From Verrucomicrobiales bacterium (GTDB taxonomy: Bacteria > Verrucomicrobiota > Verrucomicrobiia > Verrucomicrobiales > DEV007), in contig JARGPH010000011.1 of NCBI GenBank assembly GCA_029213065.1, positions 80,733-144,732 on the forward strand: a DNA stretch of 64,000 nt, in the 5' to 3' direction. Below are positions 6,001-42,887 of the stretch, one piece after another; within the stretch, counting starts at the first letter, position 1, and every line of letters begins with the position of its first letter. A program made the position numbers and the translations under genes. The notes below the pieces were generated by a model. The model saw only the letters and a list, made by a program, of their open reading frames with translations, was not told the origin of the DNA and searched no databases.

Positions 6001-9000
6001 TGTAGGTAAAAGAGGAATCTGCTCCAGCCGCAGGAGTCGCAACGACTGCACCGTCACTGTCTAAAACCTCCCAGGTGTAGGCAATCGGTCCAGCCCCGGT
6101 TGTCGTCGCCAAACCGCTGAGATCCACCGCCTCCCCGGAAATCCCATTCTGCGGAACCGTGATTTCATCCAGCTTCAAAGTCGTCGCTAGAGGATCGGTC
6201 TCAAACGCTCCGAGATCGGCGCCGCCTTCCTGACCGGCCAATGCCGAATAGCTCACTTTGATGTTGTCCAGCTGGGTACGCTCTCCCGCATTGCCGAGGC
6301 GAGCACTGAAAGTGAGACCTCCAAAAGTGCTCAACGCGGTTGTGCTCGATCCATTCCCCGTTTCTCCGGTTCCCCGCAGAGCCGTCATGTCCGTTCCGCT
6401 CTCATTCAACGTGAACGTAAACCGAACCGTCGAAGCCACTCCTATAGCGGGCTCACCTGCCGAAATGATTGCTGAACCTCCAAAATTGATGGCGCTACTG
6501 TTGTCCTGCATGGTCCAGGTCAGAGTTTCAACCCCGTCAGAAAGAGTGAAGACGTAGTCCTGATCGCCGGTAACCTTGGTAAAATCGTAATCGATCGTCA
6601 CCGTCGTCGGGTAAGTGGGAGGAAACTCGCCCGCAGGCAGAACCTGATAGGAAAACAGATCCTCGTTATCGGCTCCTCCGGCCGGAAAATTAAGGGAAGT
6701 GCCGACGACTGTGGGCACCCGGTCTGAATCAAGGATTGTGAAATCCGGATTGTTCAACAGATCCACCCCGGTGCTGTCAATATCAACCGCACTGGTCACC
6801 GTTCCCGATGCCGCCCGTCCCACTCCGGTCTGATCAGTGGCGATGGTCGAGTTCACTGCCGCTCCGGAGGCAGAGCTCCCCGGGAAAATTGCATGGGTCC
6901 GGCCGAAGCCACCATAGAAGTCCAGAGGCTGCAAATCAGGGTCCTCGGTAATGCGCAATTGAGTGTCTCCGCTCAAAGTTCCATTCGCCTGAACACCGAT
7001 GACGTTTCCTCCGACGAGGATCGCGCTCCCCCGCACATCAGATGCGTCCTCATTCCCCGGCGAATCAAAATCAGCGATGTTGCCGTATACGATGCTGTTC
7101 TGAAGCGTCACGGTTCCCCCGCTACGATAGAAACCGGCTCCTGCATCGGTTCCTCCGCGGGAAGCTTTATTATCAGTAATCGTAACGTGATTGAGATCGG
7201 CTACATTACCGCTGCTTTGTATCCATATTCCGCCGCCAACCGCGTTGGTCGAAGACGCACCGATATTTCCGCCATTCTTAGCTCTGAAGAACCCGGCGTA
7301 ATTGTCGCTGAAAGTGGTATTGTTCGCCACCAGCTGAGCGTTCGAGGCAAGACGCACCGCACCACCGTGGTTGTCGCCGACATTGCCGGAAACAGTGGTA
7401 CCGTTCAGGGTGATCAACGGCTCGTTCTCCGCATCAAAGCCACCGCCATAGCGAGCCGCCTCGTTGTCACTGAGCGTGGAATCGACTAAGGTGACCCGGG
7501 CCCGGCCGAGAGCGCGAAATCCCCCGCCTCGAAGATCAGCACCAATGCTGCCCGACTCACGCCGGGTCACTCCGTCGCTTTCGTATCCAGCGAGATTGCC
7601 ATCCACATGTGTTCGTGTCAGGGTCACTTTGGAATCATCAGTGACATAAAATCCACCGCCATGGTCGCGTGCGATGTTCCCGGTAACGGCGCTGTCCAGA
7701 CCGGTGAAAATCGATGATCCGGTAATCATGAGCCCACCACCCGAGTTTCGGCTGTAGTTATCCGAGATCTCCGTTCTTACCAGATTCAAAGTTGCGTTTT
7801 CAACGTAAAAGCCACCGCCGTTGTGGCTCGACTGGTTTTCAGTGACAAGACTGTCAGTGAGATCGACCACCGAGTAGGAGGAAATCCAGCCGCCGCCACC
7901 CTGCCGGTTACCGGAGGCGGCAGTGGTTTCGTTATTGCTGATCGTGACGTGGGAACCAACGATCTCGGCACCGTCTGCATAAAAGCCGCCACCGCGCTCT
8001 GTACCTACCGAATTGCTGTCAATCAAGACGTGTTCGAGATTCACGATGGTGTTACCGGTAGTGCGGAAGCCACCTCCCCGAACCCTCGCGGAATTGTTCT
8101 GAATCACGACTTCGGCAGCGGCCGTTCCAATGATATTCACAAGGCCACCAGTGGAAGTATTGTAGAACCCGCCACCTTCTTCAGCAACGTTACGAAGAAT
8201 GCTCGTAGTCCCGTCAATGTTCACGGTCGATCCGTCACCATTGTAAAAGCCGCCCCCGAAGGATTGTAATACCCCTGTCCCTGTCATCCGGGTTCGGTTG
8301 TCCTCCAAAGCGACACCGGTCAAAGTGACCACGCCATCGCTGTAGTTCGCGAACCCGCCTCCATGCCGATCGATTCTCCAATGGCTGCTTTCACCCGTAT
8401 CGGGATCCCAACCCAGGGTATTGTTCCGGATCGACGAATCGATCACCGTAACTTCTCCGCCACCGTTGTAGAAACCACCACCGTGCCCGAAGGCAAGATT
8501 GTCCTCCAACTGAGAACCACTCACGGTCACGATGCCGCCGCCATTGTAAAAGCCACCGCCATAACCGCTGATGCTGGCGTTCGCGACAACGCCTCCATCA
8601 GAACCCAAATCCTGCGACCCGCCATCTAAATCGAGCGTTTCGTTGCCGGTGATAGAAACGTTCGTCAGGGTGACGATGCCGCTATTGTAGAAACCACCAC
8701 CGTGCTCGTTGTTCGCAGTGTTGCCCTCGATCGTGGAATTTCTCAGGTCAACCTCAGCAAAGGTATTCGCGACGCGGAAGGCTCCGCCACGGGTCCCCGC
8801 CAGATTATTATTGAGACTGACATTGTCACCAATCACTTTGGTATGCGCATCGGAAATATAAAAAGCGCCGCCCTCATTGGCGGTATGATTGTTTATATTA
8901 ACGTTAGTGAGATTAACCACACTGGCGCCGATGGCATAAAAACCGCCCCCGACCCTGTTCGTTGGAAGCGTATTATTCACTAAATCGACATCTCTCAGGG

Positions 9001-12000
9001 TCGTAGTCCCCTTGTCCGAAGTCATGAAGCCCGCCCCGTGCACCGCTGACTGATTGTTCTGAATCAGAGTCCGGCTTCCGACAGCCCCTTCAATCGTTAC
9101 TTCGCCGCCGCGATTCCAGAATCCGCCGCCGTATCCGGTAGTCGTGTTACCCTGAATCGGACTGGTTCCGGTAATGGTGACGTCACCGAGACTGTTCATG
9201 AAACCTCCACCATAGTCACCGGTATTCACTCCGTTACTGTTGTTCTCAATCGCCGTGTTATGCAGAATCACAGTCCCGCTGTTGTAGAAGCCCCCGCCGT
9301 GCTCATTGGTGGCACTATTGCCGGAGATAACACTGTCGGTCAGGTCGACCGTGGATCGTGTCGTCGCATTCCGAAAACCGCCTCCACGGGTATTCGCAAG
9401 GTTGTCGGTGAGAGTAACGTTGGTTCCCGTAATACTCCCGTTCGAATCCGCCTGATAAAATCCACCGCCGTCATTCGCAGTGTTATTGGTGATCGTCACT
9501 CCATCGAGAATCGTGTCGCCTTCTTCCCGGTTGGAGAATCCGCCACCGGCACTGGCCTCGTTCAAAGTGATGATGCCTCCGGTGACAATAACATTTCCGT
9601 CGCTATTTCGGAATCCGGCGCCATCGCCGGAGGAAACGTTGTTTCGAATATTCGCTGTATTCACGTTAACGGTGCCATCATTAGCAAAGAAACCACCCCC
9701 TGAACCTGCGTAAGCCGTGTTCCCGTCAATCGCGGTGCCGTTCAAGGTCACCACCGTATTTTCAGAACTCACCCAGAACCCTCCACCAGCCCGGCCCCGG
9801 TTGGCTGTGATTGTCGTAGTATTATCCAGTGTAATCACTGCCCCTCCCGAAGCAAAGAAACCGCCACCGTATGCCTGGCGCCCATCGATTTCTGCAGATG
9901 AGCCGGTGCCACGTTCAGCGAGGTTGTCTTCTACATTCAGATTGATCCCGGTAATAGTGGCATTGTTAGCCCAGAAACCACCACCATGGCGGTCAGCATC
10001 CTGTTCGCCACTAATGTCCTGATCATCCAGCTCTGTCCGGACGACATTGTCGATGATCGTGACATTCTCAAGAATCACAGTCGTTCCCGATTCCGCATAA
10101 AGACCGGCACCATGGCTGTAGTTAATAGCGCCTCCGGTGATCGTGAGATTCTTCAAGGTCACCGTCGTGCCGCTACCGCGGATATTAAAAACCCGGTCGA
10201 GGTGCTGACCATCGATGATGGTGACGCCTTCGCCCGCACCGATAATGGTGAGGTCCTTGTTGATGTCAAAATCACCAGTGACGTTGTTGTTTTCGTTAGT
10301 GCCGTTGTCGTCCGTTGTATCAATCGCAGGAGTTGTTCCGGTCGCCGCAAAAATGGCGGCCTGCGCGGTCGCATCGATCACCGTGTTATTTCCGGCCTCC
10401 TGATCGTCGAGTTGCATCAGATACCTGCCAGATCCGAGCGTGATGGTATCCCCAGCGCCAGCCGCATTAATCATCCCCCGCAGCGAATCAGCGGCTCCGT
10501 TATCCAACAAATTCTGGGTGCTTGCGCCCCCGACTGTGATAACGACATCGTCGGTGTCTCCTCCGACACCGCCAAGGTAACTGATTGTGGCATCCATTCC
10601 GCTACCAAGGAAATTCGAAATCGTGGAACCTTCCGGATACCCACTGAAAGCACCCGTTCCACCGTTGCGACTGATGATTATGTATTGCTGCCCCGTCGCC
10701 GGAACAAGCGCACCGGGAATCAAACTGAGTGAAACACTGTTTCCGATATCAATGATGCCACTGGCATTGAGCTGATCATGAAATCCCGCCCCGTCACCTG
10801 CGGTCGCCCCATCAAACTCCACTTGAAAAATGCTGTTGTCCGCGAAGTCAAAATCCCCGATCACCGTAGTGATTCCCGGTGAAGCGCCCGGAGCAAGAGT
10901 TCCGTCAATCGTGACCCCTTCAGCAACAGTGAGGTCAGTTCCTGTTGCATCATGAATCTCGCCGGCGGTGACCAGAGTGAGGGGATCACTTACGCTTACG
11001 GTAGCGAGGTTGATGTCGCCCGCCGTATCACTGCCGATCGTTATGGAACTGAAGCCATCCTGAATTCTTGCCAACTCTCCGTCATTCAGATTCAGAGTCC
11101 CCGTGATACCACCCAGACCGATCGTGGTCGATGCCGTGCTCGCTTCAATGGTAAGACTTCCGCTGCCTGACAGATCACCTGAAATACCCATCTCATCTGA
11201 ACGGAGAGCGAGGTTTCCGCTACCCGAGTCGATCGCGGCGCTCACCTGTAAACTGTTGCCCCCTATCGTGATGTTACCTCCATTGGAGTTGATTGTTCCT
11301 GCTCCGGTGTTCACGAAACCTATTGGGTTCGAGGGATCCGTTCCCAGAGTCGTTCCATCGACCGTAATATTTCCACCTCCTGTTGAAGTAACAGGCGCAA
11401 AGAAAATCACGCCCTCATCACCGCCGCTTCCCGTGACCGTGATATCACCGGTATTCGAGGTAACTTGACCTCCCGTGACTAAGGCAATTCCGTCATTGGT
11501 TGCATTCGTAGTCGTTCCCTCGAGATCAATCGTTCCGGATCCGGTGCTCTGAATGATGCCGGTCGACTGGATTCCTTCACCACTCGCCGACGTTCCGGTC
11601 AGAGAAATAGCGCCGTTTACCGTTTCAATCAAAGTTGTCGACGAGGCAATTTGAATTCCGTCGCCATTCGCTCCGGAGTCAATCGCTGTGCCACTGATCG
11701 TAATATCACCAAAGCCAATGTTTGTGATAGCCGCACCTGATGTCACTAAGACACCTATATCTTGAACAGATGAACCCGTAATCGCAATATCACCACCCGA
11801 GGCTGAAACGAGTGTCCCCCCTGACGATAACACAACACCGAAAGATGTGCCGGCCGGCGTCCCCGTCGCAACGCCAGTTATTTCGATATTTCCACTTCCC
11901 GAGGCAACAAGCTGGAATCCGCTCACCACCACTACCGCATCATCCCCGGAAGACTGCCCCCCGATTGTGATGTCACCATCCACCGTGCTGATCCCCCCTC

Positions 12001-15000
12001 CTGAACTCCCTGACAAAACAATACCGACGTCATTTAAATCAGGGCCGGAGGTTCCCGATATTTCGACGCTCCCCGCCCCAATTGCATTGATGGATGATCC
12101 CGACGAAAGAATGACCCCCTCATTGGTTGATGAAATACCATCGATGACAACGTTGCCATCATCACTCAAGATTAAACCTGACAATATCGCGACACCATTA
12201 TCATTCACTCCAGTTCCCCCAACGCCTGTAAGCGTGACGCTTCCGGATCCGCTGACGACTATATCTCCGTTCACAGTCACAGCGGTTCCGGTTTCAGCTG
12301 AGTTATCAGCAACGATAGATACATCACCGACTGAAACAAGAGTCTCAGAGACCACAGCGAGGTTCGAGGATACTGTAAAATCGCCGACCTCACCGAGACT
12401 GCCCACGCTCGCGGTAAGGAGCACACTCCCGCTGGAGTTGACGTTTAAGTCATAGTTCGCGACCGCATTTGGAACTGTCACGGATACATCATCCAGAAAC
12501 CAGTCATCGAAGGGGCCCACTGTTGATGAATTGGAGAATCTAAATTTCACCGCTGAATGCAAAGCGCCGCCGGGCAAAAGAAGTGACCGCAATTCATACT
12601 CAGTCATATCCGGTCCATCGCCGGGTAACGTTTCAATCGCCACCCACGTCGTCCCGTCTGAAGCCAGATATTCAACGAGAAAATCATCTCCGGCTTCTGT
12701 CGAATTTCCACCGCCAGTGCGCTGATAGTGAAAGTTCAATGTTGCGGACAAAGTGGAACTCAAATCGATCTCAACGGACTCAATTTTATCACTTCCATCA
12801 GGTGTGCCGTTGAATCGGGCGGACAGGGTCGGGCTTGGCTCATTCAATCCCGCAGAGTCGATTGTTGCAGTCTCCACTAGCGACCATTTTGCTGGATCAA
12901 ACGCTGACGTTGGAAACGTATCATTAAACACCGGGACATCGGAGTAATCGGAATCAATTTCCCCGGAGAAGACAAAGTCCCCGCCTTCAAAAGTGACATC
13001 TTCTTTGAGGCGGACTTGACCGTTGTAGGTCTGATCTCCGGCTGTAGTCACATTGACTGCCGCTACAGCAATTACTTCCGCGTTAACGACAAAATTCCCC
13101 GGAAGAGTGGGCAACCCATCGATCGAAACAAAATCATCTCCGCCCAGTGTATTAATCGTGAAATCGCCTGTGAGGCTTGCCAACGAAATCCTGACTTCCG
13201 AATCGCTAACCTGCGTTCCGGCCCCGTCCAGTTCCAGACCTCCAAGAGAATCAACGATAACAATCTGATTGGCAGCTGAATCAAAGTTAATTGAAATGGC
13301 GTCGTCTTTTCCACCTGACAAAATATCATCGATTGTGAGGTTGCCGCCGCTCAACGTCACCATGGTTGTGGTCGTCGTCTTAACCCCCACATTTGCGGTT
13401 GCGACCACCGTGGTATTCAATCCCCCGGCACCATTGTCGCTATCCAGATAGGAGACTGTAATTACCTCACCAAAGCCAACTTCGACGCTCCCGTTGCCTG
13501 TGGCAGCAGGCCCATCATTGATCGGAACAAAGCCCCGGTAGGTTCCGACGCCGATAAGGTCGAGAGTTAACGTCTCGCTTTCACCGCCGTCAGAGGTCAG
13601 GGTGACAGTGTGTGTTGGCCCCGTGAGGTCGGCATCGACCACTGTTATAATTGCGGTCTCTCCGCGCAAATAGTCAGTTTTATCCAACTCGATCGTTCCA
13701 GTGGAAGTATTGCTTCCAGTCGCTGTCACTGAGGACATTTCAGAAAAACTAATCTGCCCCAGTCCATTGTCCCTCGTCAAAGTTCCATTTCCTACGTCTA
13801 CCGCTCCGGCACCCGTGTACTCAAGCTCGTCAATATCAGTATCGCCCGGGTCAATTCCCCCGCGAACTCGGATCACAGCCGCAATTCCCTTATCGATCAC
13901 AATCCGATCGGACCCGATGCCACCATCGATCAGAATTTCCCCCTCCGTGTCAGAATTGAGATCAATAGTGTACTCGACAGAGTCAGCCTCAGGGCTGCTA
14001 TGCGCAGCATCGGAAAAAGGTGAAACGGTTACCTTAACAATACCACCGCCCATATCAGCCAGAGTGATAACATCGTTCGCTCCGGTTCCGGTCACGTAGG
14101 CAAAATCTGCAGTGCCATCCCGGTTATCATCTCTCAATCCAATATCGGCATCATTGGCAAGCCTTTCGTAGTTATTGCTCTGCGCTGATTGCCCCGACGC
14201 ACGGTCCAAATCGAATCGGGTCACCATAAACGGTTGTTCACGAGTCACCGATCCCAACCTGATCACATCACCACTCGCAAGGAGTCCTGTGGAATGATGC
14301 AATGTCTGGGTATGCCCGGATTCGTGGATGGCAGTGTACGCGATTCGATAAGCAAGGGCGGCGTTGAACTCGGCGAGGTTTGTTGAAGTCAGACTGAACG
14401 AGACAGCATTGAGAAGAGTGTCCGCAAAGCTCAGCGTCGCTTCATCAAAATTATTACCCGTTTCCAAAGTCAAATCAGTGGCTGCCGCGACACCGAAAAG
14501 GCTCGTGTTATTGCCAACAGATCCCCCCGAGAATCGAGCAGAAGTAAATTCAGCGATGAAGTTGTAGGAATCGAACTCACCGGTTGGATCCCCGTCATTC
14601 AGACTCAGGTAATCTCTCACGTCCTGCTCATTAGCCGAAGAGGCGATCTGAACATCAAAATCAAAAGGTTCCAGAGCGCGGTCAGCGATCGCTTTCACCG
14701 CAGCTGAAAGTCCGGCAATGTCATCGCTGTCAACATCTCCATCGCCGTCCCAATCGTGATTCAACGCTGACGCAGTCAAATCATCTGTCGCCGTAAGGCC
14801 GTTACGCCCCTCCAGGCGGGAGCCCGTTCCCAGCCCGCCAACCCCCGAACCGTCAATATTCTTGAAGTCGTCAACCGTCGTGGTAAAACCGCTCTCCCCA
14901 AAATCGAGAAATACAGTAGAGATGAAGTGCTTCCCTTCTAAACTCCCGGCCTCATAATTCTCGGCCTGATGCTCTTCGATCAATCGTCGCTCTCCGGCTT

Positions 15001-15688
15001 CGAGATGAGCATACATGAGATCGCTCCTATCCACGGTAGTATCCAGCAACCCTAAAATGTGCCCAATTTCATGGCTTACCACCGTTAAGAGGTCCATTTG
15101 CCCTGAATCCCCTTCATCAAGGGTCAAAAGAATACCATCTGCATCGGTGAAATATTCAAAATCATCCCACGGTGTTGAATCCACGAACCAACCCTCGCCA
15201 GCCGCATCAATATCGATATAAATTGAATCATTCTCGGCGTAGCCCAAACCCAAACCGTCGATATCTGAGACAAAATATTTAATCGAATCAAGGAACTCGA
15301 CTTGCTCTTCATTTAACCCGGCTTCAATCCACCGCTGCTCAGCCGCATCAGCGATCATTTCCAGCTCACTCAAGCTGAGCCGCTCAGCCTCTGCTTCCTC
15401 CGTCTCCTCGTCCCCGGCTGTCCCGACATCCTCAGCCTGGCCAGCCTCCTGAGACTGCACAATACCCGCGTCTCCCCCCGCAGGAGGTTCCTCCTCTACA
15501 GGCGCTTCACTACCTACAGGCGCCGCTGAAAACAATACTCTCGGCTCCAACGCCTCTGCAAACAGCTCACGGCGTTTCTCCGTTACCACCCTGTTTCCTT
15601 TCCGTTTTTCCAACCATCTTTGAAAGGCTGAAACGCGACATCGGTAGAAAAACCAATTCCGGTGGCGGGAGGTTACAGTGCGCTTCAT
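1..15688 (-). CDS. Giant LEPR-XLL surface protein with metzincin-like and beta-helix domains (partial)
   Basis: One open frame begins at an ATG at 15688 and is still open at base 1, giving at least 5,229 codons. The frame at the left edge matches the start frame, and the lines I checked show no stop. The C-terminus lies outside the window. Residues 1-58 are basic and end in LEPRVLFSA (47-55), the LEPR-XLL leader known from large PVC exported proteins. HEIGHILGLLD (206-216) followed by SDLMY resembles a metzincin zinc site and Met-turn. A dockerin-like DWDGDGDVDSDD loop lies near 310. A second site, HESGHTQTLHH, is at 455-465. Then come a jelly-roll-like module (about 13.0-12.5 kb), beta-solenoid and LAPGxSPG segments, two GGGFY beta-helix arrays, PKD-like domains and autotransporter strand repeats. 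Probably secreted or surface-bound and Ca-stabilised; the role (adhesin, protease or both) is inferred. No clear ribosome binding site is visible. Confidence 0.88.
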   Translation of the reverse strand, partial: MKRTVTSRHRNWFFYRCRVSAFQRWLEKRKGNRVVTEKRRELFAEALEPRVLFSAAPVGSEAPVEEEPPAGGDAGIVQSQEAGQAEDVGTAGDEETEEAEAERLSLSELEMIADAAEQRWIEAGLNEEQVEFLDSIKYFVSDIDGLGLGYAENDSIYIDIDAAGEGWFVDSTPWDDFEYFTDADGILLTLDEGDSGQMDLLTVVSHEIGHILGLLDTTVDRSDLMYAHLEAGERRLIEEHQAENYEAGSLEGKHFISTVFLDFGESGFTTTVDDFKNIDGSGVGGLGTGSRLEGRNGLTATDDLTASALNHDWDGDGDVDSDDIAGLSAAVKAIADRALEPFDFDVQIASSANEQDVRDYLSLNDGDPTGEFDSYNFIAEFTSARFSGGSVGNNTSLFGVAAATDLTLETGNNFDEATLSFADTLLNAVSFSLTSTNLAEFNAALAYRIAYTAIHESGHTQTLHHSTGLLASGDVIRLGSVTREQPFMVTRFDLDRASGQSAQSNNYERLANDADIGLRDDNRDGTADFAYVTGTGANDVITLADMGGGIVKVTVSPFSDAAHSSPEADSVEYTIDLNSDTEGEILIDGGIGSDRIVIDKGIAAVIRVRGGIDPGDTDIDELEYTGAGAVDVGNGTLTRDNGLGQISFSEMSSVTATGSNTSTGTIELDKTDYLRGETAIITVVDADLTGPTHTVTLTSDGGESETLTLDLIGVGTYRGFVPINDGPAATGNGSVEVGFGEVITVSYLDSDNGAGGLNTTVVATANVGVKTTTTTMVTLSGGNLTIDDILSGGKDDAISINFDSAANQIVIVDSLGGLELDGAGTQVSDSEVRISLASLTGDFTINTLGGDDFVSIDGLPTLPGNFVVNAEVIAVAAVNVTTAGDQTYNGQVRLKEDVTFEGGDFVFSGEIDSDYSDVPVFNDTFPTSAFDPAKWSLVETATIDSAGLNEPSPTLSARFNGTPDGSDKIESVEIDLSSTLSATLNFHYQRTGGGNSTEAGDDFLVEYLASDGTTWVAIETLPGDGPDMTEYELRSLLLPGGALHSAVKFRFSNSSTVGPFDDWFLDDVSVTVPNAVANYDLNVNSSGSVLLTASVGSLGEVGDFTVSSNLAVVSETLVSVGDVSIVADNSAETGTAVTVNGDIVVSGSGSVTLTGVGGTGVNDNGVAILSGLILSDDGNVVIDGISSTNEGVILSSGSSINAIGAGSVEISGTSGPDLNDVGIVLSGSSGGGISTVDGDITIGGQSSGDDAVVVVSGFQLVASGSGNIEITGVATGTPAGTSFGVVLSSGGTLVSASGGDIAITGSSVQDIGVLVTSGAAITNIGFGDITISGTAIDSGANGDGIQIASSTTLIETVNGAISLTGTSASGEGIQSTGIIQSTGSGTIDLEGTTTNATNDGIALVTGGQVTSNTGDITVTGSGGDEGVIFFAPVTSTGGGNITVDGTTLGTDPSNPIGFVNTGAGTINSNGGNITIGGNSLQVSAAIDSGSGNLALRSDEMGISGDLSGSGSLTIEASTASTTIGLGGITGTLNLNDGELARIQDGFSSITIGSDTAGDINLATVSVSDPLTLVTAGEIHDATGTDLTVAEGVTIDGTLAPGASPGITTVIGDFDFADNSIFQVEFDGATAGDGAGFHDQLNASGIIDIGNSVSLSLIPGALVPATGQQYIIISRNGGTGAFSGYPEGSTISNFLGSGMDATISYLGGVGGDTDDVVITVGGASTQNLLDNGAADSLRGMINAAGAGDTITLGSGRYLMQLDDQEAGNNTVIDATAQAAIFAATGTTPAIDTTDDNGTNENNNVTGDFDINKDLTIIGAGEGVTIIDGQHLDRVFNIRGSGTTVTLKNLTITGGAINYSHGAGLYAESGTTVILENVTIIDNVVRTELDDQDISGEQDADRHGGGFWANNATITGINLNVEDNLAERGTGSSAEIDGRQAYGGGFFASGGAVITLDNTTTITANRGRAGGGFWVSSENTVVTLNGTAIDGNTAYAGSGGGFFANDGTVNVNTANIRNNVSSGDGAGFRNSDGNVIVTGGIITLNEASAGGGFSNREEGDTILDGVTITNNTANDGGGFYQADSNGSITGTNVTLTDNLANTRGGGFRNATTRSTVDLTDSVISGNSATNEHGGGFYNSGTVILHNTAIENNSNGVNTGDYGGGFMNSLGDVTITGTSPIQGNTTTGYGGGFWNRGGEVTIEGAVGSRTLIQNNQSAVHGAGFMTSDKGTTTLRDVDLVNNTLPTNRVGGGFYAIGASVVNLTNVNINNHTANEGGAFYISDAHTKVIGDNVSLNNNLAGTRGGAFRVANTFAEVDLRNSTIEGNTANNEHGGGFYNSGIVTLTNVSITGNETLDLDGGSQDLGSDGGVVANASISGYGGGFYNGGGIVTVSGSQLEDNLAFGHGGGFYNGGGEVTVIDSSIRNNTLGWDPDTGESSHWRIDRHGGGFANYSDGVVTLTGVALEDNRTRMTGTGVLQSFGGGFYNGDGSTVNIDGTTSILRNVAEEGGGFYNTSTGGLVNIIGTAAAEVVIQNNSARVRGGGFRTTGNTIVNLEHVLIDSNSVGTERGGGFYADGAEIVGSHVTISNNETTAASGNRQGGGGWISSYSVVDLTDSLVTENQSSHNGGGFYVENATLNLVRTEISDNYSRNSGGGLMITGSSIFTGLDSAVTGNIARDHGGGFYVTDDSKVTLTRTHVDGNLAGYESDGVTRRESGSIGADLRGGGFRALGRARVTLVDSTLSDNEAARYGGGFDAENEPLITLNGTTVSGNVGDNHGGAVRLASNAQLVANNTTFSDNYAGFFRAKNGGNIGASSTNAVGGGIWIQSSGNVADLNHVTITDNKASRGGTDAGAGFYRSGGTVTLQNSIVYGNIADFDSPGNEDASDVRGSAILVGGNVIGVQANGTLSGDTQLRITEDPDLQPLDFYGGFGRTHAIFPGSSASGAAVNSTIATDQTGVGRAASGTVTSAVDIDSTGVDLLNNPDFTILDSDRVPTVVGTSLNFPAGGADNEDLFSYQVLPAGEFPPTYPTTVTIDYDFTKVTGDQDYVFTLSDGVETLTWTMQDNSSAINFGGSAIISAGEPAIGVASTVRFTFTLNESGTDMTALRGTGETGNGSSTTALSTFGGLTFSARLGNAGERTQLDNIKVSYSALAGQEGGADLGAFETDPLATTLKLDEITVPQNGISGEAVDLSGLATTTGAGPIAYTWEVLDSDGAVVATPAAGADSSFTYNTSVASPVETLTVRITATDSTTGQTEIQTREILMVDPEAMPTTGTGSVVVTVASDEDDGDVTAGDISLREAIKMANASAAGTFVITFDAALDGTPIEMSITPTSGTDNENGNLRGDFDITKTNGAVSIVGNGAANTIIDGKRIDRVFHLHSGGTAFFSELAITGGETTTSDRQGGGLYNNGGIAVFKNVDITDNHASESNNSAVGGALYLRSTGLNSSATYITGGSVSDNSAEGNGGGIYFEGNNVGESFLYMKDTTLSGNIAASVDSNVDSKRGGGLYMTDDGNKLVLNNVTVSDNATLGRNANDGGGLAITGADHTIDIIGGSFLRNQAGDNPGGTGTSDNDGGALWSGGTRSQFTFTGVDIGGELAGGADAAGIGTARVNGNVAEDEGGGFYLEGRHNTYDLVDTRIIGNQANDDGGGFMVINNTETVNISQTAPGLSVIRNNFSSTSNGGGFRNDGIVNITGTAAAPIEIRFNEGRGSVGGGFYTTGNGTTTLTDVVVRDNEARNSGGGYYNSGGGHVVISSSVASTSGTPGSFVSKIINNSVTNGTSADGGGFYQTSANSTSDLSDVLIADNTATDEGGGFYQSSNFGRVSLTRVDITNNEAQDSGGGFYSASNGSIVEMDTVLIDSNESTTEHGGGFRNNGIISGGKVTVTNNTAAGVGGGIYNPTGQITLIDVIVDDNVAGSHGGGFYNASGGIVEFSSSSGFRSSISNNTTGAASDRDGGGFWTGNAGSVVRLSGLDILNNYAADEGGGFYLTSDGNRVELRNVLIDGNTAEDNGGGFYSTSSFSVVTLNNVVISNNESLTEHGGGFRNNGIVTGADVVVTGNRAGADDLDAATDNNNNRVGGGIYNVGSFATLEIDRIRVTDNVAHGRGGGIYNTDGTITFTDFDISNNTTDQASSESQGRGGGIWNSDRGELFLTRGLISGNRSFGHGGGVFQQNNNSHTEMTNVTLSDNLAGWDLSAGDFEAGRVGGGFWAISAGTSMLNHVTVTGNRATSNTAGSGGVRFDNGGNKTTIKNSIFYGNLRNVITTATAADIDNNVGSDTALEGLNIVGSRDGTMANENTARVNIDPLLGPLQNNGGFSQTHALGAGSLAIDSAVGVSPVTDQLGVSRPVGMIVPATPTDLNRTGADLLSDPNFTLLDRAASVVGTSLNFAAGSANDDDLFSYQVLPAGEVGPFYPATVVIDLDFTKVTTDQDFVFTLSDGTTNRTWTMVDNGGGDINYGGVIVTTGEPANGVPASVQFAFTLNSNGTVMTATRGTGETGTGSTTTVLNPFEGLTLSARLGNSGERTQIDNLAVTYSGFTETVNGADIGAFEVNADPQVTSFTVDRTEINENGTVTINGLGSGGNNGADPFDVVIDWGDGSAPETVTVPASLTEAATFTATHTFADDFPATGTGQDDLTITVSAVGQSAAVLTKTVTVNNVAPTLSVVADQTTTEGMMLTLSDLATFTDPGFGANETFSYSIDWGDGSAADTGAATIDANGSAGVATSGAIDGSHVYADNGVYTVTVNLSDDDGGSTTETFEVTVNNAAPTVKNLVDSNLGEGAPFTFPAGAFNDLGTLDIHTAIIDWGDGSPAEDGVVVETPMGPPGNVAGTDITLSNTHTFAADDGVYTVNVKLVDDDGNRVEKSFTITINNVDPTAVADAYGADEDTLLTIDRADGVLANDTDPANTGTQHPNDAENGTDHQDQLVVSQIQNSGGFSALSDFGAAVVMMADGSFTYDASNSAVLQTLAEGETIVDTFTYTVEDGDGGTDTGTVSITVTGKGAIEIDMTKVFPPADAGSYTNPNYAPGTDFTPGSAAANPGGDAVDDTMTVQLNGTDLDIIVNGVLLRSIPNAAITNGAGVDNSGAPANANGKHDILITGSGDVETLSVGSLGTDFFNDVIIDVAGGTDQVNFTAASSIQGDLTVASDSADIAANLTSGGTQTFNGPVTLSASATLDGDNVFFRDSVALGTSDLTVTTATGGSADAIISGDGNLTKNGPGTFTLNVAN
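2..330 (-). repeat. Autotransporter-associated beta-strand repeat at the left edge
   Basis: The last visible residues include GDGNLTKNGPGTFTLNVAN, which matches the consensus of passenger-domain autotransporter repeats (G.G.ltK.G.GtltL...n). More such repeats, and possibly an anchoring or translocation domain, are expected beyond base 1. Confidence 0.75.
2060..2740 (-). repeat. Closing module, copy 2 in the giant protein
   Basis: Second copy of the closing domain: DLFSYQVLPAGE, DFTKVTTDQDFVFTLSDG, RGTGETGTGS, LSARLGNSGERTQIDN, ending GADIGAFE. PKD-like repeats with DWGDGSAPET and DWGDGSAADT cores follow it at about 2.05-1.05 kb, then a cadherin/VCBS-like domain (DTFTYTVEDGDGG) at about 1.05-0.68 kb. 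Confidence 0.8.
2740..5800 (-). repeat. Second GGGFY beta-helix array of the giant protein
   Basis: A second run of about 25 beta-helix rungs with the same GGGF(Y/R) signature. It starts after a clear ISLREAIKMANAS (CSLREAI-like) cap near 5770-5810. It copies the architecture of the 6.9-10.5 kb array at lower identity. Boundaries are approximate. Confidence 0.8.
6210..6880 (-). repeat. Closing module, copy 1 (choice-of-anchor-like) in the giant protein
   Basis: A domain of about 220 residues ends the first beta-helix. It contains DLFSYQVLPAGE, DFTKVTGDQDYVFTLSDG, RGTGETGNGS, FSARLGNAGERTQLDN and ends in GADLGAFE. The same domain recurs at 2060-2740 with most residues conserved, so the two are tandem copies of one module about 4.15 kb apart. 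Confidence 0.8.
6900..10500 (-). repeat. First GGGFY beta-helix array of the giant protein
   Basis: Inside the giant gene, about 30 short units of the form 'NN.a...GGGFyn.g..v.l.nv.is.N' follow each other. This is the pattern of right-handed parallel beta-helix (polymorphic outer-membrane-protein type) rungs, each contributing GGGF(Y/W/R) and a following asparagine ladder. It is preceded by a SLRGMINAAG segment resembling the CSLREAI-type cap. Boundaries are approximate. Confidence 0.8.
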
Positions 15689-15986
15689 AGGACAAACAGG
15701 GGGCTTAAAGGGAGCCGTATCGGGTACGGAAACAGGCAAAAATGAAAAAAATTCCAATCTTGAGTATCAGTTTTCAGTCTCCAAACAAGAACAAAACGAC
15801 CTTTTTCCCCCATTTCACTTGACGCCGAAAATCCCGATTCAAATTGAATATTAAGGGTTTACACAGGCCCGAGAATCCCGACTCCGCCGCGAATGACGTC
15901 AAGAAAAAGATCTGCCCCTTGCCATTCACTTCTCGACAAAGACAGAGTCGCTCCGATAAGCTTCGCGCCTTTAAAATACCTACTTT
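15689..15986. promoter_or_regulatory. Divergent intergenic region with a 13-bp palindrome
   Basis: This 298-bp gap separates the divergently transcribed giant gene and methyltransferase gene, so it must hold both promoters. I see no confident -35/-10 pair. A perfect palindrome, ATTCAAATTGAAT, lies at 15837-15849 and could be an operator. Short frames here show no recognisable protein. Confidence 0.3.
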
Positions 15987-18831: not shown

Positions 18832-18842
18832 CCGGAAACACA

Positions 18843-19958: not shown

Positions 19959-19962
19959 ATTA

Positions 19963-21950: not shown

Positions 21951-22002
21951 GTTTTTAACAAATTTAAAAAATATTAGCTAAATTTAAAATAAACTTTTGC
22001 CT

Positions 22003-22031: not shown

Positions 22032-22049
22032 TGTTAGAAATACGAACTT

Positions 22050-30530: not shown

Positions 30531-32783
30531 CTACGAAGCCGCTGCCCGTGCCTGCTGGATCTTCTCTTTCACGTAAGTGGAAACTTCGTTGTAGAGCCAT
30601 TTCCCGAGGCGCTCTTTCTCAGCATTGGCAAACCGGAGATACCCCCACTCCCCTTCACGAAGCTCCTGATCTCCGGCATCCGTAATTTTAGCCCTGCCCG
30701 CAAAGCGAGCCCGCGCAAGCTCCCGCCCGGGTTGCCTGTCACCGAGCCCCGAGAAGTAATCCAGATCAGAATCATACTCCCCTCCGCCACGGGCGATATC
30801 CCGCTCACGCTCAGCGACCGGATCGCTGGAAGTTCTCAAGGCAAGCGGCCCTCCGCTGGAGGCAGACATGACCTCGTGCGGCAAGGCACGGGTCGCGCGG
30901 CTCTCGATACGCTCGATCACCGCCTCAATCGTTTTAGAGCGCCCCCGAAGACGGACTTTGATCGCAGGGCTCTTCTGCGAGATGACCGACTCCACATCCT
31001 CCTGACGAAAAGAAACCAGCAGTTCCCGCTCATCACCGGCAATGACCGACAGTATCTCGTCCCCGGTATTCAACCATTGCCCTTCGAGCGTTTTCAACTG
31101 ACGCCCCGCAACAACCCCGTCTTTTGGCGCCACGACCTCAAGGGAGGCCAAATATTGACGGCTTTCCTCGAGCTTTCGCTCCAGACCGGTGATGGTCTCG
31201 AGCTCAGCCTGATGAGCCGGGAGATTCTCCTGCTGGTAATAGCTTCTCGCCCTGATGCGCGCGGTTCGCAGCTCCAGCACCAACTTGTCGCGCTCCGCTT
31301 CCTCATCCGGATTCGACAGCTTCAAGAGCAGATCCCCCTTTTTCACAAGGTCATCCTGCTCCACCAAAACTTCTGTGACTTTTCCACGAACACCGGCACG
31401 AATCACTTCACGCTCCGCGTACTCCACTACCGCAAGCGCTTTTCCGGTAGGATTGATACGCGCAAACCAGAAGACACCCAGAAGCAGCAAAACCGTAATC
31501 CCGAGACGGGGCAGCGCTCTTGATAACTTCGGCCCCGAACCGGATTTGAAGAGAAATTTGAAAAACTTCACCGCCGTGGCCCCAACCATCACTGCCACGG
31601 AAGCCAGCGCGAGAAACAAGCCGGCCCCCTTAAAGAGCAGGCTCACAATAATCATGATCCCGATCCAGATCAGGATTTTCCAAATCGCAGCGAGAACGCC
31701 GTAGAGGGGCACCGCAACAGGATGCTGTCGTGCCGCAATCGGCATGGGGAGATCTTCCATCCCGAGAAAGACCCGCTTCCCTACCCAGATCAGAAACTGC
31801 TGCCCCTTCGTCCCGAGATTCGGGATTCCCAGTGCATCCAGCAAAATGTAATAGCCATCAAACCGCATCAGCGGGTTGGCGTTGAAGAGCAAAGTCACAA
31901 AGGTCGCCGCAATAACGGCACTGTGAAGCGAGGTATTGAGGACTCCCGGGTCTGTGTGCAACCATCCGAGAAGACAAAAGCAGGCGATCGCAACTTCGAC
32001 ATACATCCCCGCCGCCGAAACGATGATTCGCTTCCACTTTGAAGGGAATTTCCAACTGGCCGAGGCATCGACAAAAGCCAACGGAGTCACAAAAGCCAAT
32101 AACTGCACGCCCCATTCCGGCACCGCTCCACCATATCGTTTCGTCGCCAATCCGTGCCCGTATTCGTGAAGAACCTTCAGCACTGTATAAATCAAAATCA
32201 CCCGAATCCAGTTACCGGGAGCAATCACCTGCCCCGTCGCTTTCACAAATTGATCCCAGTGCGGAGCCAATTGAAAACAGGTATAAAGAACGAGAGCGAG
32301 CCACATGAGAAGACCCGGGACCGCAAAGATCCAGCCGAAGAGATGCTTCGTACTTCCGATAAAGCGATCAGGGCACCCGAGAGGCACCTTGAAAAACATG
32401 ACCTTGCTGATCGGGTTTTTGGGCTTCTTATCCTGCTGCTTCGACCATTGCTCCATGCGGCGCTCCCCCTGCCCGCTTGTGTCGGATTCCAGCAAATCAT
32501 TATCGACGAGCCAGCGAAGCAACTGATCGCCCTGTTGCTCTGTCAGGGCCTCCTCCCCCTGAGTCGCCGCATTCCTTGCGAGCGCCTGGGAGATCGTAGT
32601 GCGACCGTCAAAGCACTGGATAAATTGATGCTCAGGAAAACCGACGTGGAAAAATTTCCCCTTCGAAGTGTCCTCGACGATATAGCTCGGCTCCCCCCTG
32701 TATTCCTGGTAGTGGGTCCGGACATCGCGCCGCAGCCGCGGCCTCGACGTGGAAATCTCGCTGATACGATGGTCGACTGACAT
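30531..32783 (-). CDS. PqqD-like / site-2 protease (M50) / HlyD fusion protein
   Basis: A 750-residue membrane protein joining three modules. Residues ~14-100 (RPRLRRDV to DNDLLE) resemble the PqqD-like RiPP-recognition domain. Residues ~147-445 are a multi-spanning S2P/M50 region: zinc motif HEYGHGLA (206-213) and the second motif NANPLMRFDG (301-310) supply the expected His, His and Asp ligands. From ~450 a biotinyl-lipoyl/HlyD adaptor follows (AGVRGKVTEVLVEQDDLVKKGD) with a coiled-coil hairpin to ~600. Start 32783 lies 2 bp after the stop of the GAF-HlyD gene; an upstream in-frame ATG at 32837 lies inside that gene. Likely an inner-membrane protease-linked export adaptor. The substrate is unknown. 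Confidence 0.8.
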   Translation of the reverse strand: MSVDHRISEISTSRPRLRRDVRTHYQEYRGEPSYIVEDTSKGKFFHVGFPEHQFIQCFDGRTTISQALARNAATQGEEALTEQQGDQLLRWLVDNDLLESDTSGQGERRMEQWSKQQDKKPKNPISKVMFFKVPLGCPDRFIGSTKHLFGWIFAVPGLLMWLALVLYTCFQLAPHWDQFVKATGQVIAPGNWIRVILIYTVLKVLHEYGHGLATKRYGGAVPEWGVQLLAFVTPLAFVDASASWKFPSKWKRIIVSAAGMYVEVAIACFCLLGWLHTDPGVLNTSLHSAVIAATFVTLLFNANPLMRFDGYYILLDALGIPNLGTKGQQFLIWVGKRVFLGMEDLPMPIAARQHPVAVPLYGVLAAIWKILIWIGIMIIVSLLFKGAGLFLALASVAVMVGATAVKFFKFLFKSGSGPKLSRALPRLGITVLLLLGVFWFARINPTGKALAVVEYAEREVIRAGVRGKVTEVLVEQDDLVKKGDLLLKLSNPDEEAERDKLVLELRTARIRARSYYQQENLPAHQAELETITGLERKLEESRQYLASLEVVAPKDGVVAGRQLKTLEGQWLNTGDEILSVIAGDERELLVSFRQEDVESVISQKSPAIKVRLRGRSKTIEAVIERIESRATRALPHEVMSASSGGPLALRTSSDPVAERERDIARGGGEYDSDLDYFSGLGDRQPGRELARARFAGRAKITDAGDQELREGEWGYLRFANAEKERLGKWLYNEVSTYVKEKIQQARAAAS

Positions 32784-32785
32784 AA

Positions 32786-34684
32786 TCACCAAAGCTTGAG
32801 ACGGAGATATTCCCAGAGTCCATGAAACAAAATCCATCCGATGGATTTTTTACCCGCTTCGATTCTCACACTCCCCTTCATCCCGGGTCGGAGCAGTTCA
32901 TTCTCGTTCTCGAGGAGCGCTTCCCCGGAGAATACGTTCTCCCCGTCTTCCACTTCGGAAACAGGATGAATCGTCTTGATCTCCGAAGTCCACTTGAGCG
33001 AGCTGTCGGAATCGAGCCTCATGAAAACTTCACTCCCCTCGGAAATGTGACGCAACTCGGTTTCAGGAATCGAAATTTCCATGAGCATCTCCTCCAGCGG
33101 GGCAATCTCGTAAAGTCGCTGACCGGTCGTAACCGGCACCCCTTCGGAACGCTCGAGGTTCCCCGTGAGGACGATGCCGGCAATCGGGGAACGAATAATG
33201 AGGTTGTCGCTGCGATACTGAAGGCGCTCCACTTCGAGAGCAAGCCGGTCCGACTCGAGTTGAGCCATTTGAAGGTCAGCCGGATCATCGAGCACCATCG
33301 CGTTGTCCCGTTTCTTTACGGCGGCACTGCGCGCTGCAATCGCCTCTGCCAGATTCACTCGGATTTCCCGCCCGTCGAGTTCGGCGAGAACCTGCCCCGC
33401 CTCCACTTCATCACCGGGCTTCACGTAGGTACGATACAATAGATTTTCAAAAGGTGCCGCGACGGTCCGTCGCATCACCGGCTGGATGCGGCAATCAGCC
33501 GGAACCCGATAGGAAATCGGCACTAACATCAAAATCAAAACGGCCACGACCACTCCAATCGTCGAAAAACGTTTCACCGCACTCTGCCTCCAGAATTTGG
33601 CAATCCCCCCGCGAAAGCTTCCGTGTTTTGATTTTTTAAGAAACCGCAGGAGCGAGGTCAAATGAGGCTGCGAAGCCGCAAGCAGTCGGCAGGTTCGGCG
33701 GGAAACATCCGGGGCGCCCGCAGGCCAGAGCAACGCAATCGCACCGGTAAAGCCGGACCCCTCGTGCTTCAGGGGTGCCACGAGAATTCGGCTCGCTTTA
33801 AACGAATGAAGCAAATCATCGTGATTCGCGGAAACGACGACATCTTTGATCAACATCTCCTGACCGGGCCACATCATGACCTCACCGAGAGCAATCGCCT
33901 CTTTCATCGCCGAACCCAATTGGGAAAAACCGAGGGTTCTTTTTTCCTCGCTGCTCATACCCGACATCGCGTGAACTTTGCAGGAGCGGCTCGATCCGGT
34001 TCCGATAGCAACCCGCTGGCAACCGAAGAACTTCTCCAACTCGGTCGCAAGGGTGAAAAGCGCCCGTCTGAAGGTATCCGCCTCACCGGTCCGCGTGAAC
34101 ATTTCCACAAGCATCGTCGCCTGATAGAAAGCCTGCTCACTCTCATGTGACTGGGCGAGAAGGTCACGCTGCACGATGAACTGTGTCGTGAGGTGGAGCA
34201 TCGCAAAGCAGGGATCCGAAAAGGCAATCCGCTCCGGTGGCAGATAAGCAGTGATACAAATGGGATCCTCACCCTCTTCGAAGAACGGCACCATGAGACG
34301 CGCGTGCTGCCTGCCATCGATAAGAACCTGTGTCTGGGTGCTCCGCTGCTCCGCGTACCGCTCCTCGACCACTTCAGCAGGGAGGAGCCATGATTTCCGA
34401 CCGTCTGCCGTGGTCGAAACCGAGGAAAATCCCACCAGTTTGATCCCGTTCTCACGGTTTTCATGGAGCAAGACAGAAGAAGCGCCCAGCAAAAGCTTCA
34501 CATAATCCGACAACAACTGGAGGAAATCCCCCCGGTTTCCCGCCCGTGAAAAAAGCTCACGCAGAGGGGCTAAACAGTCCTGCGGGCGCAGGGCGCGGGT
34601 CACAACCACTTCGGCAGGATTAGTCGCCCTGCCAATCGGGAGACCCGAAGCGTCTCGCATTTCACTAACCAAATCACTTGCCAT
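32786..34684 (-). CDS. GAF-domain HlyD-family membrane-fusion protein
   Basis: A 632-residue protein. The cytoplasmic half (1-370) contains one or two GAF-like domains, for example LLGASSVLLHENRENG at 65-80 and FFGCQRVAIG at 219-228. A single membrane helix (FSTIGVVVAVLILMLVPISY) spans 373-392, followed by an HlyD/RND adaptor: RRTVAAPFENLLYRTYVKPG, a helical hairpin (about 445-495), then RSPIAGIVLTGNLERSEG and a beta-barrel. This places a sensor domain in the cytoplasm and an adaptor in the periplasm. It is followed 2 bp later by the PqqD/S2P/HlyD gene, so the two are co-translated and probably form a complex. Its ligand is unknown; no outer-membrane TolC is nearby. Confidence 0.75.
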   Translation of the reverse strand: MASDLVSEMRDASGLPIGRATNPAEVVVTRALRPQDCLAPLRELFSRAGNRGDFLQLLSDYVKLLLGASSVLLHENRENGIKLVGFSSVSTTADGRKSWLLPAEVVEERYAEQRSTQTQVLIDGRQHARLMVPFFEEGEDPICITAYLPPERIAFSDPCFAMLHLTTQFIVQRDLLAQSHESEQAFYQATMLVEMFTRTGEADTFRRALFTLATELEKFFGCQRVAIGTGSSRSCKVHAMSGMSSEEKRTLGFSQLGSAMKEAIALGEVMMWPGQEMLIKDVVVSANHDDLLHSFKASRILVAPLKHEGSGFTGAIALLWPAGAPDVSRRTCRLLAASQPHLTSLLRFLKKSKHGSFRGGIAKFWRQSAVKRFSTIGVVVAVLILMLVPISYRVPADCRIQPVMRRTVAAPFENLLYRTYVKPGDEVEAGQVLAELDGREIRVNLAEAIAARSAAVKKRDNAMVLDDPADLQMAQLESDRLALEVERLQYRSDNLIIRSPIAGIVLTGNLERSEGVPVTTGQRLYEIAPLEEMLMEISIPETELRHISEGSEVFMRLDSDSSLKWTSEIKTIHPVSEVEDGENVFSGEALLENENELLRPGMKGSVRIEAGKKSIGWILFHGLWEYLRLKLW

Positions 34685-34777
34685 AAATTACCTTCCCGGA
34701 AGAGAAGTCTACAAGGATACCCCCTATGGAGTTACATGACAATTCGCGATTCGAGCTACTCGACCCGCAAAAAGCGC

Positions 34778-36259
34778 TCAGTGAGCTTCTTTTTCCGCCC
34801 TGTCCATGAATTGCGTGATTCGATCCTCACGCTGCGGCATCGCCTCCTCCTCAAGAATCCGCCTCATTTTGAGGTAATCGTCGAAGGCTCCACTCCGCTG
34901 CGGAGCCTGTGTTGCCTCGAAGTAGTTGAGATGATCCCGTGTCTTCGCCAGGGTCTCCCTGATCTTCTGTCTCATATTGGCAGCAACCTCGATCTCATCA
35001 TCGATCCCCTTTAATTTGCCTGCGATGAGTCGTTGCAGAACCGTCTCGTAACGCACAAAAACCGGCCGATAGAGTGGAAACCCGGTCAGTTTCACCCGCT
35101 GCAAACGCCGGAAGGCCTTTTCCAATTCCACCTCAGCGCCGGGCAATTTTAAAAACTCATTGTATTGCTCAATCCCCCCGGTAAAGGACCTGCCCTCTGA
35201 AGGGGCGGAAGGCGTCTCAGGCTTCCCTTTTTTCAAGCGCTGGAAAATTCCCAGAACGGGGTTCGATGATACCTCCCCCCCTTTCTGATTATCCACTGCC
35301 GGTTTGATATCAACAGTGAGCGCCTCAGTAAGCCACTTCTCCGTCTCTTCAGGAGTCAGGTATTCGAACCCCTGCTGAATTCCCATCGTCGCAATCTCCA
35401 GTGCCCACCACTTTTCAATTCCCCGATCCATCTCACGAAAGGCGGGGAAATGCTGTCGCAGAAGCGGCAGAGCACTGTCTCCGCTATCAGCCCCGAGATC
35501 GGCAAGAAAGGCACGAACACCGGCTTCTCCCCCCGGTTGGTTCAAAAGGGCCTCCACAAAAGCAGCCGATGAAGCTCGAAAGCCGGCGCGGGTAACCGGC
35601 TCCATCGATTCGAAATCTCCGATCTCAATGAGTTTTTCCGGAGCCAACATCTGTCCGCTCTCGAGAATGCCCCGGTAAAAAGCGCTCGGCTGCCCATCCT
35701 TTCGGTGCTGCAGCAACTCGTCGAAGCCATGCGCCAGCCACCCCGGAGCAACGACGCTGTTCTTTCGAAAAGCCGAAGGCCTTTCCGCGAACGGAGCGAC
35801 CATCTGCTCAATAAGCAGCGCTTTCACCAGTTCCAAACGAAACGCCTCTTCGCGGAAACGATCATGCACCTTTACACTCACGCGAATCAGAAAACGGTCA
35901 TCGGGTCCGATCTCGACACTTGTTTTCAAATCGGGCCCTTTATAGACCTCATTCGACTGCCCCCAGAGATCAATTCGAATAGGGATCTTCCAGTCGAGGC
36001 TCCGGTCAGCCTTTCCGGGGCGCCTCCGCAGGAGCACATTGCGGAAGTCATCCTGGACTTCACGGCAAAAAGAAAGAAAGAGGACCCGCTGAGTCGGCTC
36101 CCCTCCAAAAACCCTGATCTGGAAGTCTTCCCCCCAGTCCGCGGCCGGCTTCTGACCGACAGAGGACCGGGGAGCACTGAATTCGCCAACCTCCTGAGCG
36201 AGAGGGCTCCGCGCACTCAAGGATCCAATCCCAAGGGCCAGAGCAATTCTCACTGCCAT
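34778..36259 (-). CDS. Secreted protein of unknown function, first gene of the HlyD operon
   Basis: A 493-residue protein from ATG 36259, which opens with a signal peptide (MAVRIALALGIGSLSARSPLAQ). The longer frame to 36427 lacks a signal and is less likely. I do not recognise the family. WLAHGFDELLQ (about residues 174-184) resembles the W-x-x-H-G-x-x-E region of peptidase-MA-like proteins but has no second zinc histidine, so a catalytic site is not established. The C-terminal 80 residues are helical and charged. It lies 93 bp upstream of the GAF-HlyD gene on the same strand and is likely co-transcribed, so it may be a periplasmic component of that system. Confidence 0.6.
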   Translation of the reverse strand: MAVRIALALGIGSLSARSPLAQEVGEFSAPRSSVGQKPAADWGEDFQIRVFGGEPTQRVLFLSFCREVQDDFRNVLLRRRPGKADRSLDWKIPIRIDLWGQSNEVYKGPDLKTSVEIGPDDRFLIRVSVKVHDRFREEAFRLELVKALLIEQMVAPFAERPSAFRKNSVVAPGWLAHGFDELLQHRKDGQPSAFYRGILESGQMLAPEKLIEIGDFESMEPVTRAGFRASSAAFVEALLNQPGGEAGVRAFLADLGADSGDSALPLLRQHFPAFREMDRGIEKWWALEIATMGIQQGFEYLTPEETEKWLTEALTVDIKPAVDNQKGGEVSSNPVLGIFQRLKKGKPETPSAPSEGRSFTGGIEQYNEFLKLPGAEVELEKAFRRLQRVKLTGFPLYRPVFVRYETVLQRLIAGKLKGIDDEIEVAANMRQKIRETLAKTRDHLNYFEATQAPQRSGAFDDYLKMRRILEEEAMPQREDRITQFMDRAEKEAH

Positions 36260-42750: not shown

Positions 42751-42768
42751 CAACTTCTCAAATAGAAA

Positions 42769-42794
42769 AGGGTGAAGAGATAGCTCTTCACCCT
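42769..42794 (-). promoter_or_regulatory. Intercistronic hairpin between tpsA and tpsB
   Basis: A perfect 11-bp inverted repeat (AGGGTGAAGAG-ATAG-CTCTTCACCCT) is followed on the minus strand by TTTCTATTTG, 18 bp before the tpsB start. It may act as a partial terminator or an RNA-stabilising stem, making tpsB less abundant than tpsA. Confidence 0.65.
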
Positions 42795-42887
42795 CGATAT
42801 TGAAAGAGAACCACTTAATTCGCAAGAGGAATATTCAAAATTTTGAACGTTCTCTTATTTAGGAATTCTTAAGTAATCCTCTTTCTC

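Follow-up and report, generated by a model that had tools for sequence, protein, structure and literature searches.

An RRE-M50-HlyD protein and its GAF-HlyD partner as the probable recognition and membrane half of an export machine for LEPR-XLL giant proteins

The closest described relatives of the genes considered here are the loci of Kamneva, Poudel and Ward (2015; PMC4452313), which encode SecA_DEAD, M50-HlyD, GAF-HlyD and HlyD proteins and sometimes an OEP; those authors found no ABC transporter, proposed SecA as the ATPase and the M50 protein as the pore, called the broader role of the loci completely unknown, and mention neither PqqD/RRE domains nor LEPR proteins in their text. A 64,000-nucleotide stretch of DNA from a Verrucomicrobiales bacterium (the whole stretch is called the window below) contains an adjacent pair of such genes, P0001, which encodes an RRE(PqqD-like)-M50-HlyD fusion, and P0002, which encodes a GAF-containing HlyD adaptor; it also holds the 5′ part of a giant gene whose product carries a LEPR-XLL leader. 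Comparison with other genomes indicates that P0001 and P0002 probably constitute the recognition and membrane half of a machine dedicated to the export of LEPR-XLL giants, a reading to which we assign a probability of roughly 0.75. The gene set is that of the module described in 2015, and the M50-HlyD and GAF-HlyD proteins are encoded together in the window as in most loci fetched; a secondary SecA_DEAD protein is present in the window's genome (G000) but not beside the window pair. New relative to that work are the link to LEPR-XLL cargo, the RRE domain, the loss of the SecY-engaging part from the SecA-like ATPase (here SecA2), variants of the module that lack SecA2, leader classes that match M50 classes, and an occurrence in many more phyla. 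In Methylobacterium extorquens the locus is META1p2399-2402 (Kamneva, Poudel and Ward 2015; PMC4452313), and META1_2412, about ten locus tags away, is a 15,831-residue repeat protein (M. extorquens genome paper; PMC2680597). In a literature search that left subscription journals and preprints outside its scope, no paper was found that links LEPR-XLL proteins to the SecA/M50/HlyD module or gives an export route for LEPR-XLL giants.

Several better known systems share features with this module. Type I secretion (HlyB-HlyD-TolC, and LapBCE for giant adhesins) likewise combines an HlyD adaptor with TolC and handles very large, repetitive cargo, but the module has no ABC transporter, its proposed cargo, which was analysed at the N-terminus, has a leader motif there where type I cargo has an uncleaved C-terminal secretion signal, and a SecA-like ATPase and an M50 protein are present instead. 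The streptococcal accessory Sec system (SecA2/SecY2) has a second SecA dedicated to giant serine-rich repeat adhesins. The module resembles it in having a second SecA with giant repetitive, adhesin-like proteins as proposed cargo, whereas no SecY2 is found among the module's conserved genes, its SecA2 lacks the scaffold/wing, and its hosts are double-membrane bacteria in which the exit would be TolC. The PCAT/ABC transporters with a C39 peptidase also contain a leader-recognizing protease within the exporter, but there a cysteine peptidase is joined to an ABC motor where the module has an RRE, a metalloprotease and a SecA-like motor, and PCAT cargo is smaller than about 10 kDa (bacteriocin export review; PMC8277102). 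Finally, the daptide M50 protease (NF041824) and YydH/LiaK (NF058609) are related proteases; NF041824 aligns to the RRE and M50 parts of P0001, although far below its curated cut-off, and the HlyD fusion and proposed giant cargo of the module fall outside that model.

The genes and domains of the window on which the argument depends are as follows.

30531..32783, minus strand: P0001, RRE(PqqD-like)-M50-HlyD fusion protein, 750 aa
32484..32747, minus strand: predicted RRE/PqqD-like domain of P0001 (residues 13-100), from the AlphaFold model, its structural neighbours and Pfam PqqD matches of orthologues
31464..32369, minus strand: M50 (S2P-type) membrane domain of P0001 (residues 139-440), from the daptide_HExxH profile and AlphaFold helices
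32154..32168, minus strand: HEYGH zinc motif of P0001 (residues 206-210), its HExxH positions invariant in 52 homologues
31854..31877, minus strand: NPLMRFDG second zinc motif of P0001 (residues 303-310), with N303, P304 and D309 invariant in 52 homologues
30624..31451, minus strand: HlyD/membrane-fusion domain of P0001 (residues 445-720), from Pfam HlyD_3 and HlyD_D23 and structural neighbours
32786..34684, minus strand: P0002, HlyD adaptor of 632 aa with a GAF domain, encoded by the first of the two paired genes
2..15757, minus strand: 5′ part of the LEPR-XLL giant gene, proposed cargo (NF012209 match)
15524..15550, minus strand: LEPRVLFSA core of the LEPR-XLL leader of the window giant

The original prediction, made from the window's letters, had read P0001 as a fusion of three parts, a PqqD-like domain, an M50 protease that has its two zinc motifs, and an HlyD adaptor, translated 2 bp after the GAF-HlyD gene, and each of these parts is borne out. 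The open reading frames and their coordinates place the P0001 ATG two bases past the P0002 TGA (...TGG TGA TT ATG TCA). The HlyD part scores above the Pfam cut-offs (HlyD_3, 46 bits; HlyD_D23, 32.8 bits), and its structural neighbours have MacA/EmrA/HlyD/LipC folds (Z 11-15). Peptidase_M50 scores 22.5 bits in P0001, below the cut-off of 27.2 (28.6 in the paralogue on contig C74 of the same genome), and NCBIfam daptide_HExxH (NF041824) aligns to residues 16-409, thus spanning the RRE and M50 parts, at 1.4e-43 and 149.5 bits against a curated cut-off of 300. The HEYGH and NPLMRFDG motifs sit in membrane helices, and the zinc motif residues H206, E207, H210, N303, P304 and D309 do not vary among the 52 homologues. 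The GAF domain of P0002 scores 17.5 bits, below the Pfam cut-off of 22.4, which the C74 paralogue passes with 23.0. Because the HlyD part dominates a structure search with the whole chain, the N-terminal domain of P0001 was folded (AlphaFold, 46 sequences) and then searched (Foldseek) alone. The model (pLDDT 92.4) has the β3-α3 winged-helix fold of an RRE; its top Foldseek matches are RiPP recognition elements in complex with leaders (TbiB1 and the lasso-peptide B1 protein), 5v1v matches with a probability of 1.00, and PqqD itself (5sxy) aligns over 93 of 94 residues with a Z of 9.2. By sequence, Pfam PqqD (PF05402) does not match the P0001 N-terminus, and two orthologues pass that model's cut-off of 23.4 (L143, 28.9; L151, 27.0). 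By the model, then, this region has the RRE/PqqD fold and not an unrelated one.

The window pair is not the whole of the module. A second copy in G000, on C74, forms an operon of GAF-HlyD, RRE-M50-HlyD and SecA-like ATPase genes followed by a giant gene whose product begins ...FEVEQMEQRLLLTAN..., a LEPR-XLL-like leader (only 12.1 bits with the NCBIfam LEPR-XLL model). Many other genomes show this gene order, and often add genes for TolC and for a small secreted HlyD; where the flanks are complete, a GAF-HlyD homologue is almost always encoded just upstream of the P0001 homologue. A locus search with P0001 as its sole query returned no related loci, but one with the family alignment succeeded and gave 80 named loci (L numbers), most of which have a SecA-like gene beside the M50 gene; they come from Verrucomicrobiota, Planctomycetota, Nitrospirota, Desulfobacterota, Elusimicrobia, Spirochaetales, Fibrobacter, Omnitrophota, Rokubacteria and the beta- and gammaproteobacteria. 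The half that is missing from the window is found in G000 as a TolC-SecA2-HlyD cluster on contig C2, apart from the window pair, with an OEP (PF02321, 77 bits) and an HlyD; the two secondary SecA_DEAD proteins of the genome, on C74 (979 bits) and C2 (644 bits), both lie away from the pair. In a congener (L201) all five module genes and a LEPR-XLL giant lie within 20 kb, with HlyD, SecA2 and TolC on one strand and GAF-HlyD, RRE-M50-HlyD and the giant on the other, and the M50 protein there is 58% identical to P0001. In genome G218 the SecA2 gene likewise lies apart and adjoins a LEPR-XLL giant. ABC transporter genes are absent from C2, from L201 and from the immediate surroundings of the window pair; they occur near two other loci but are not conserved. 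The pair by itself does not make up the machine, which is completed in this genome by a SecA-like ATPase, a TolC and a small HlyD encoded at other sites.

The evidence that LEPR-XLL giants are the cargo comes from co-occurrence and adjacency. The counts of LEPR-XLL proteins that follow are lower bounds because the 24-position NCBIfam leader model misses variants. Among 241 genomes of Verrucomicrobiota, LEPR-XLL proteins occur in 14 of the 15 with the module versus five of the 226 others (Fisher 1e-17), and when the split fragments of G180 were later counted with the module, the figure became 15/16 strong LEPR genomes. Treatment of all M50-HlyD proteins as one class was rejected, since in this phylum canonical LEPR-XLL is not enriched where M50-HlyD proteins occur outside the GAF/SecA2 module (2/40 vs 3/186, p 0.2). 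Within an independent gammaproteobacterial order (294 genomes), the M50 protein is present in 32 of 33 LEPR-XLL genomes; the corresponding figure for the other genomes is 28 of 261 (5e-25). The M50 and LEPR genes are at most 20 kb apart in 20 of the 32. Module genomes of other phyla carry LEPR-XLL in 41 of 50 cases, and the figures for 50 close relatives are 17/17 versus 1/33. The two traits are concordant in all 20 genomes of the window's family; four genomes of its genus have both and five have neither. LEPR giants lie directly downstream of the module in eleven loci (L003, L048, L049, L052, L055, L082, L093, L107, L129, L143 and L154) and directly downstream of window-type orthologues in L201 and L202. 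When the large open reading frames beside M50 genes that do not encode module components were scanned, 35 of 69 had the motif within their first 150 aa, and it was absent from all 1380 windows taken from the interior of these frames (2e-51). The original prediction had named the LEPR-XLL giant as one candidate cargo and proposed a survey for co-occurrence with such proteins; the association is strong, and in several phyla overwhelming. The record that contains L107 is titled Akkermansia muciniphila metagenome-assembled genome (MAG), but on the M50 tree its module groups with the Comamonadaceae/betaproteobacterial loci L104 and L108 with full support, which may reflect either lateral transfer or a misbinned contig.

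The leaders themselves fit this picture. The consensus of 48 of them is E-x-L-E-P-R-[VIL]-L-[LF]-S-[AG]; the regular expression used fixes motif positions 0-8, so that the independent information is the flanking conservation (E at -2 in 40/48). A basic stretch precedes the motif (median of 8 K/R in the last 60 residues), and most leaders have no hydrophobic core like those of Sec signals from the same loci, their hydropathy being mostly low (median 1.06 vs 1.8-2.9). On a tree of the M50 proteins whose loci include a leader, the S-A-type and D-G classes of leader separate by a single change with 100/100 support, and the D-G clade mixes Gammaproteobacteria with Verrucomicrobiota; by these sequence comparisons the leader variant tracks the M50 subfamily and not the host phylum, so that leader type appears to follow the machine. 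Repeats and adhesin-like domains are found in the giants: Matrixin, PATR, cadherin-like and Ig-like domains in the window giant (NF012209 22.3 bits, cut-off 17; its frame in the genome is 8435 aa), and VCBS in one gammaproteobacterial LEPR giant.

Two further observations concern the giants. G000 has at least seven LEPR-XLL giant genes with frames of 4674-9787 aa (contigs C80, C52 and C71; L004, L164-L168), and four of these lie on the window's contig, all on one strand; several giants in this genome and genus share a longer leader, WFFARSMARAYQEWLEKR ... RPLFAEALEPRVLFSG. Most of those in G000 have a long, near-identical leader and form an expanded family, possibly of surface proteins. In addition, five M50-HlyD loci without GAF/SecA2 (L063, L064, L074, L075 and L077) lie beside giants that start with MY-x-LE[ED]RI-[LY]-FDG, a variant leader whose score is too low for the NCBIfam LEPR-XLL model to detect it. 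Three of these giants were scanned, and they have choice-of-anchor Q or POMP repeats.

Both motor domains (SecA_DEAD and the second one) and the preprotein-binding domain are retained in the SecA2 proteins, but scaffold/wing (PF07516, SecA_SW) and SEC-C are absent from the six examined, which come from different phyla; the housekeeping SecA of G000 has both in the same test. In canonical SecA the two-helix finger, which acts together with SecY, is part of the scaffold. Because this region is missing, the SecA2 motor is unlikely to use SecY as canonical SecA does. In some gammaproteobacterial genomes that have the M50 module, the housekeeping SecA is the only one present, and eleven gammaproteobacterial loci (L170-L176, L178, L179, L182 and L183) consist of GAF-HlyD, M50-HlyD, small HlyD and a LEPR giant without a SecA-like gene.

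The following scheme is consistent with these findings. The cytosolic RRE/PqqD-like domain would bind the LEPR-XLL leader, a prediction made with reasonable confidence from its fold, the co-occurrence and the matching leader classes. The truncated ATPase, without the scaffold/wing that engages SecY, is, where present, a likely motor and would push the chain; because it is missing from some gammaproteobacterial versions, another energy source should serve there. The M50 membrane domain would anchor the machine and may line the passage, and its invariant zinc ligands suggest that it may well cut the leader near L-[LF]-S-[AG], although the chances of such cleavage seem evenly balanced. Type I secretion suggests how the giant could leave in one step: the small HlyD, together with the HlyD parts of P0001 and P0002, would connect the machine to TolC; export through HlyD/TolC is very probable. 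That the GAF part gates export is a speculative and rather doubtful suggestion. The original idea of a sensor-gated system that recognizes, processes and exports a substrate thus stands in its core, while its terms "sensor-gated" and "processes" derive from domain content. Taken at its widest, the scheme describes a distinct one-step secretion route of many double-membrane phyla, in which a leader reader of the kind known from ribosomally synthesized and post-translationally modified peptides (RiPPs) selects, by their N-terminal LEPR-XLL tag, proteins that can reach about 20,000 residues, and the place of the ABC transporter in a TolC/HlyD exporter is taken by a SecY-free, SecA-derived motor and an intramembrane protease; we consider this an even proposition.

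A number of observations weigh against the export reading. LEPR matches occur without a full-length M50 protein in five genomes (G438, G586, which is 83% complete, G119, G025 and G059; those of G025 and G059 are weak and short), and nine of the 50 module genomes of other phyla, mostly MAGs, have no detectable LEPR-XLL. No LEPR gene abuts the window pair, the nearest start being about 15 kb away, and the parts of the module in G000 are scattered over several places. SecA2 was not found in Marinobacter sp. F4216 or in G343/G346, a few leaders come near the hydropathy of signal peptides, and the match of leader and M50 classes is a single evolutionary contrast. The co-occurrence statistics ignore genome relatedness beyond the within-family contrasts, and MAGs are incomplete. 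Carriers in the window's family also have larger genomes (mean 6.0 Mb vs 4.6 Mb for non-carriers), as would be expected if large genomes accumulated giant genes and adaptor operons alike; yet adjacency argues against genome size as the whole explanation, and the immediate adjacency across many phyla, the concordance within one genus, the agreement of leader and M50 classes and the lack, in Verrucomicrobiota, of canonical LEPR-XLL enrichment among M50-HlyD proteins outside the module make such passive co-occurrence hardly tenable.

The other alternatives differ in what the module would do. It might only mature LEPR-XLL proteins, the RRE binding and the M50 protease removing the leader at the membrane while another route, such as Sec with an outer-membrane partner, exports them; the invariant zinc ligands, the naming of the daptide and YydH-type M50 proteases for peptide maturation, and the absence of SecA2 from some module genomes all agree with this, but HlyD domains on two or three proteins and a TolC gene in many loci would make no sense for a pure protease, and most leaders lack a Sec-type hydrophobic core, so that we regard it as unlikely. 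The combination of GAF and S2P-type domains would suit a regulated-proteolysis sensor that cuts a membrane-bound regulator and has the giants as its downstream regulon; however, the conserved neighbours are TolC, HlyD and SecA-like genes with no regulator or anti-sigma gene among them, and the RRE fold and leader-class match indicate substrate recognition, which leaves this very improbable. Nor does a RiPP maturation and export system of the daptide or epipeptide kind, with a small precursor, account well for the locus: the RRE fold and the NF041824 match point that way, but the score is only half the model's cut-off, no maturation enzyme was recognized among the conserved neighbours of the module, and the conserved cargo-like neighbours are thousands of residues long, so that there is very little chance that this is correct. 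Dedicated export of LEPR-XLL giants by a machine that includes P0001 and P0002 is therefore preferred.

The gene upstream of the pair had been included in the original prediction as a secreted protein of the operon.

34778..36259, minus strand: P0003, secreted protein, neighbour and not a component, conserved across the host's order

The protein is indeed there, but a role in the machine was rejected: its family, which has no Pfam or NCBIfam match, occurs in 73 of the 76 genomes of the host's order, with or without the M50 protein, and because its presence is independent of that protein P0003 is a bystander. Consensus promoter matches in the region are no more numerous than expected by chance. 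Genes for an AAA ATPase, a glycerate kinase and a DNA methylase adjoin the LEPR-XLL giant in the window (15987-20787), and this neighbourhood appears conserved because it is also found in a congener (L212). Farther along, the window has two divergent multihaem c-type cytochrome genes (20907-24473) and, at 40231-55605 on the minus strand, a separate two-partner secretion set in which a ShlB/POTRA_2 transporter comes after two TpsA-type exoproteins (1950 and 2264 aa, with the TPS/filamentous haemagglutinin N-terminal domain).

The proposed link joins two orphan observations, the locus described in 2015 without a known substrate and the LEPR-XLL giants, which rank among the largest predicted bacterial proteins. 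It makes both cargo and signal open to testing and offers a simple means of predicting giant exported proteins from genomes. If it is correct, a RiPP-type leader reader would serve bulk protein secretion, and the operation of a SecA-type motor with TolC would be suggested.

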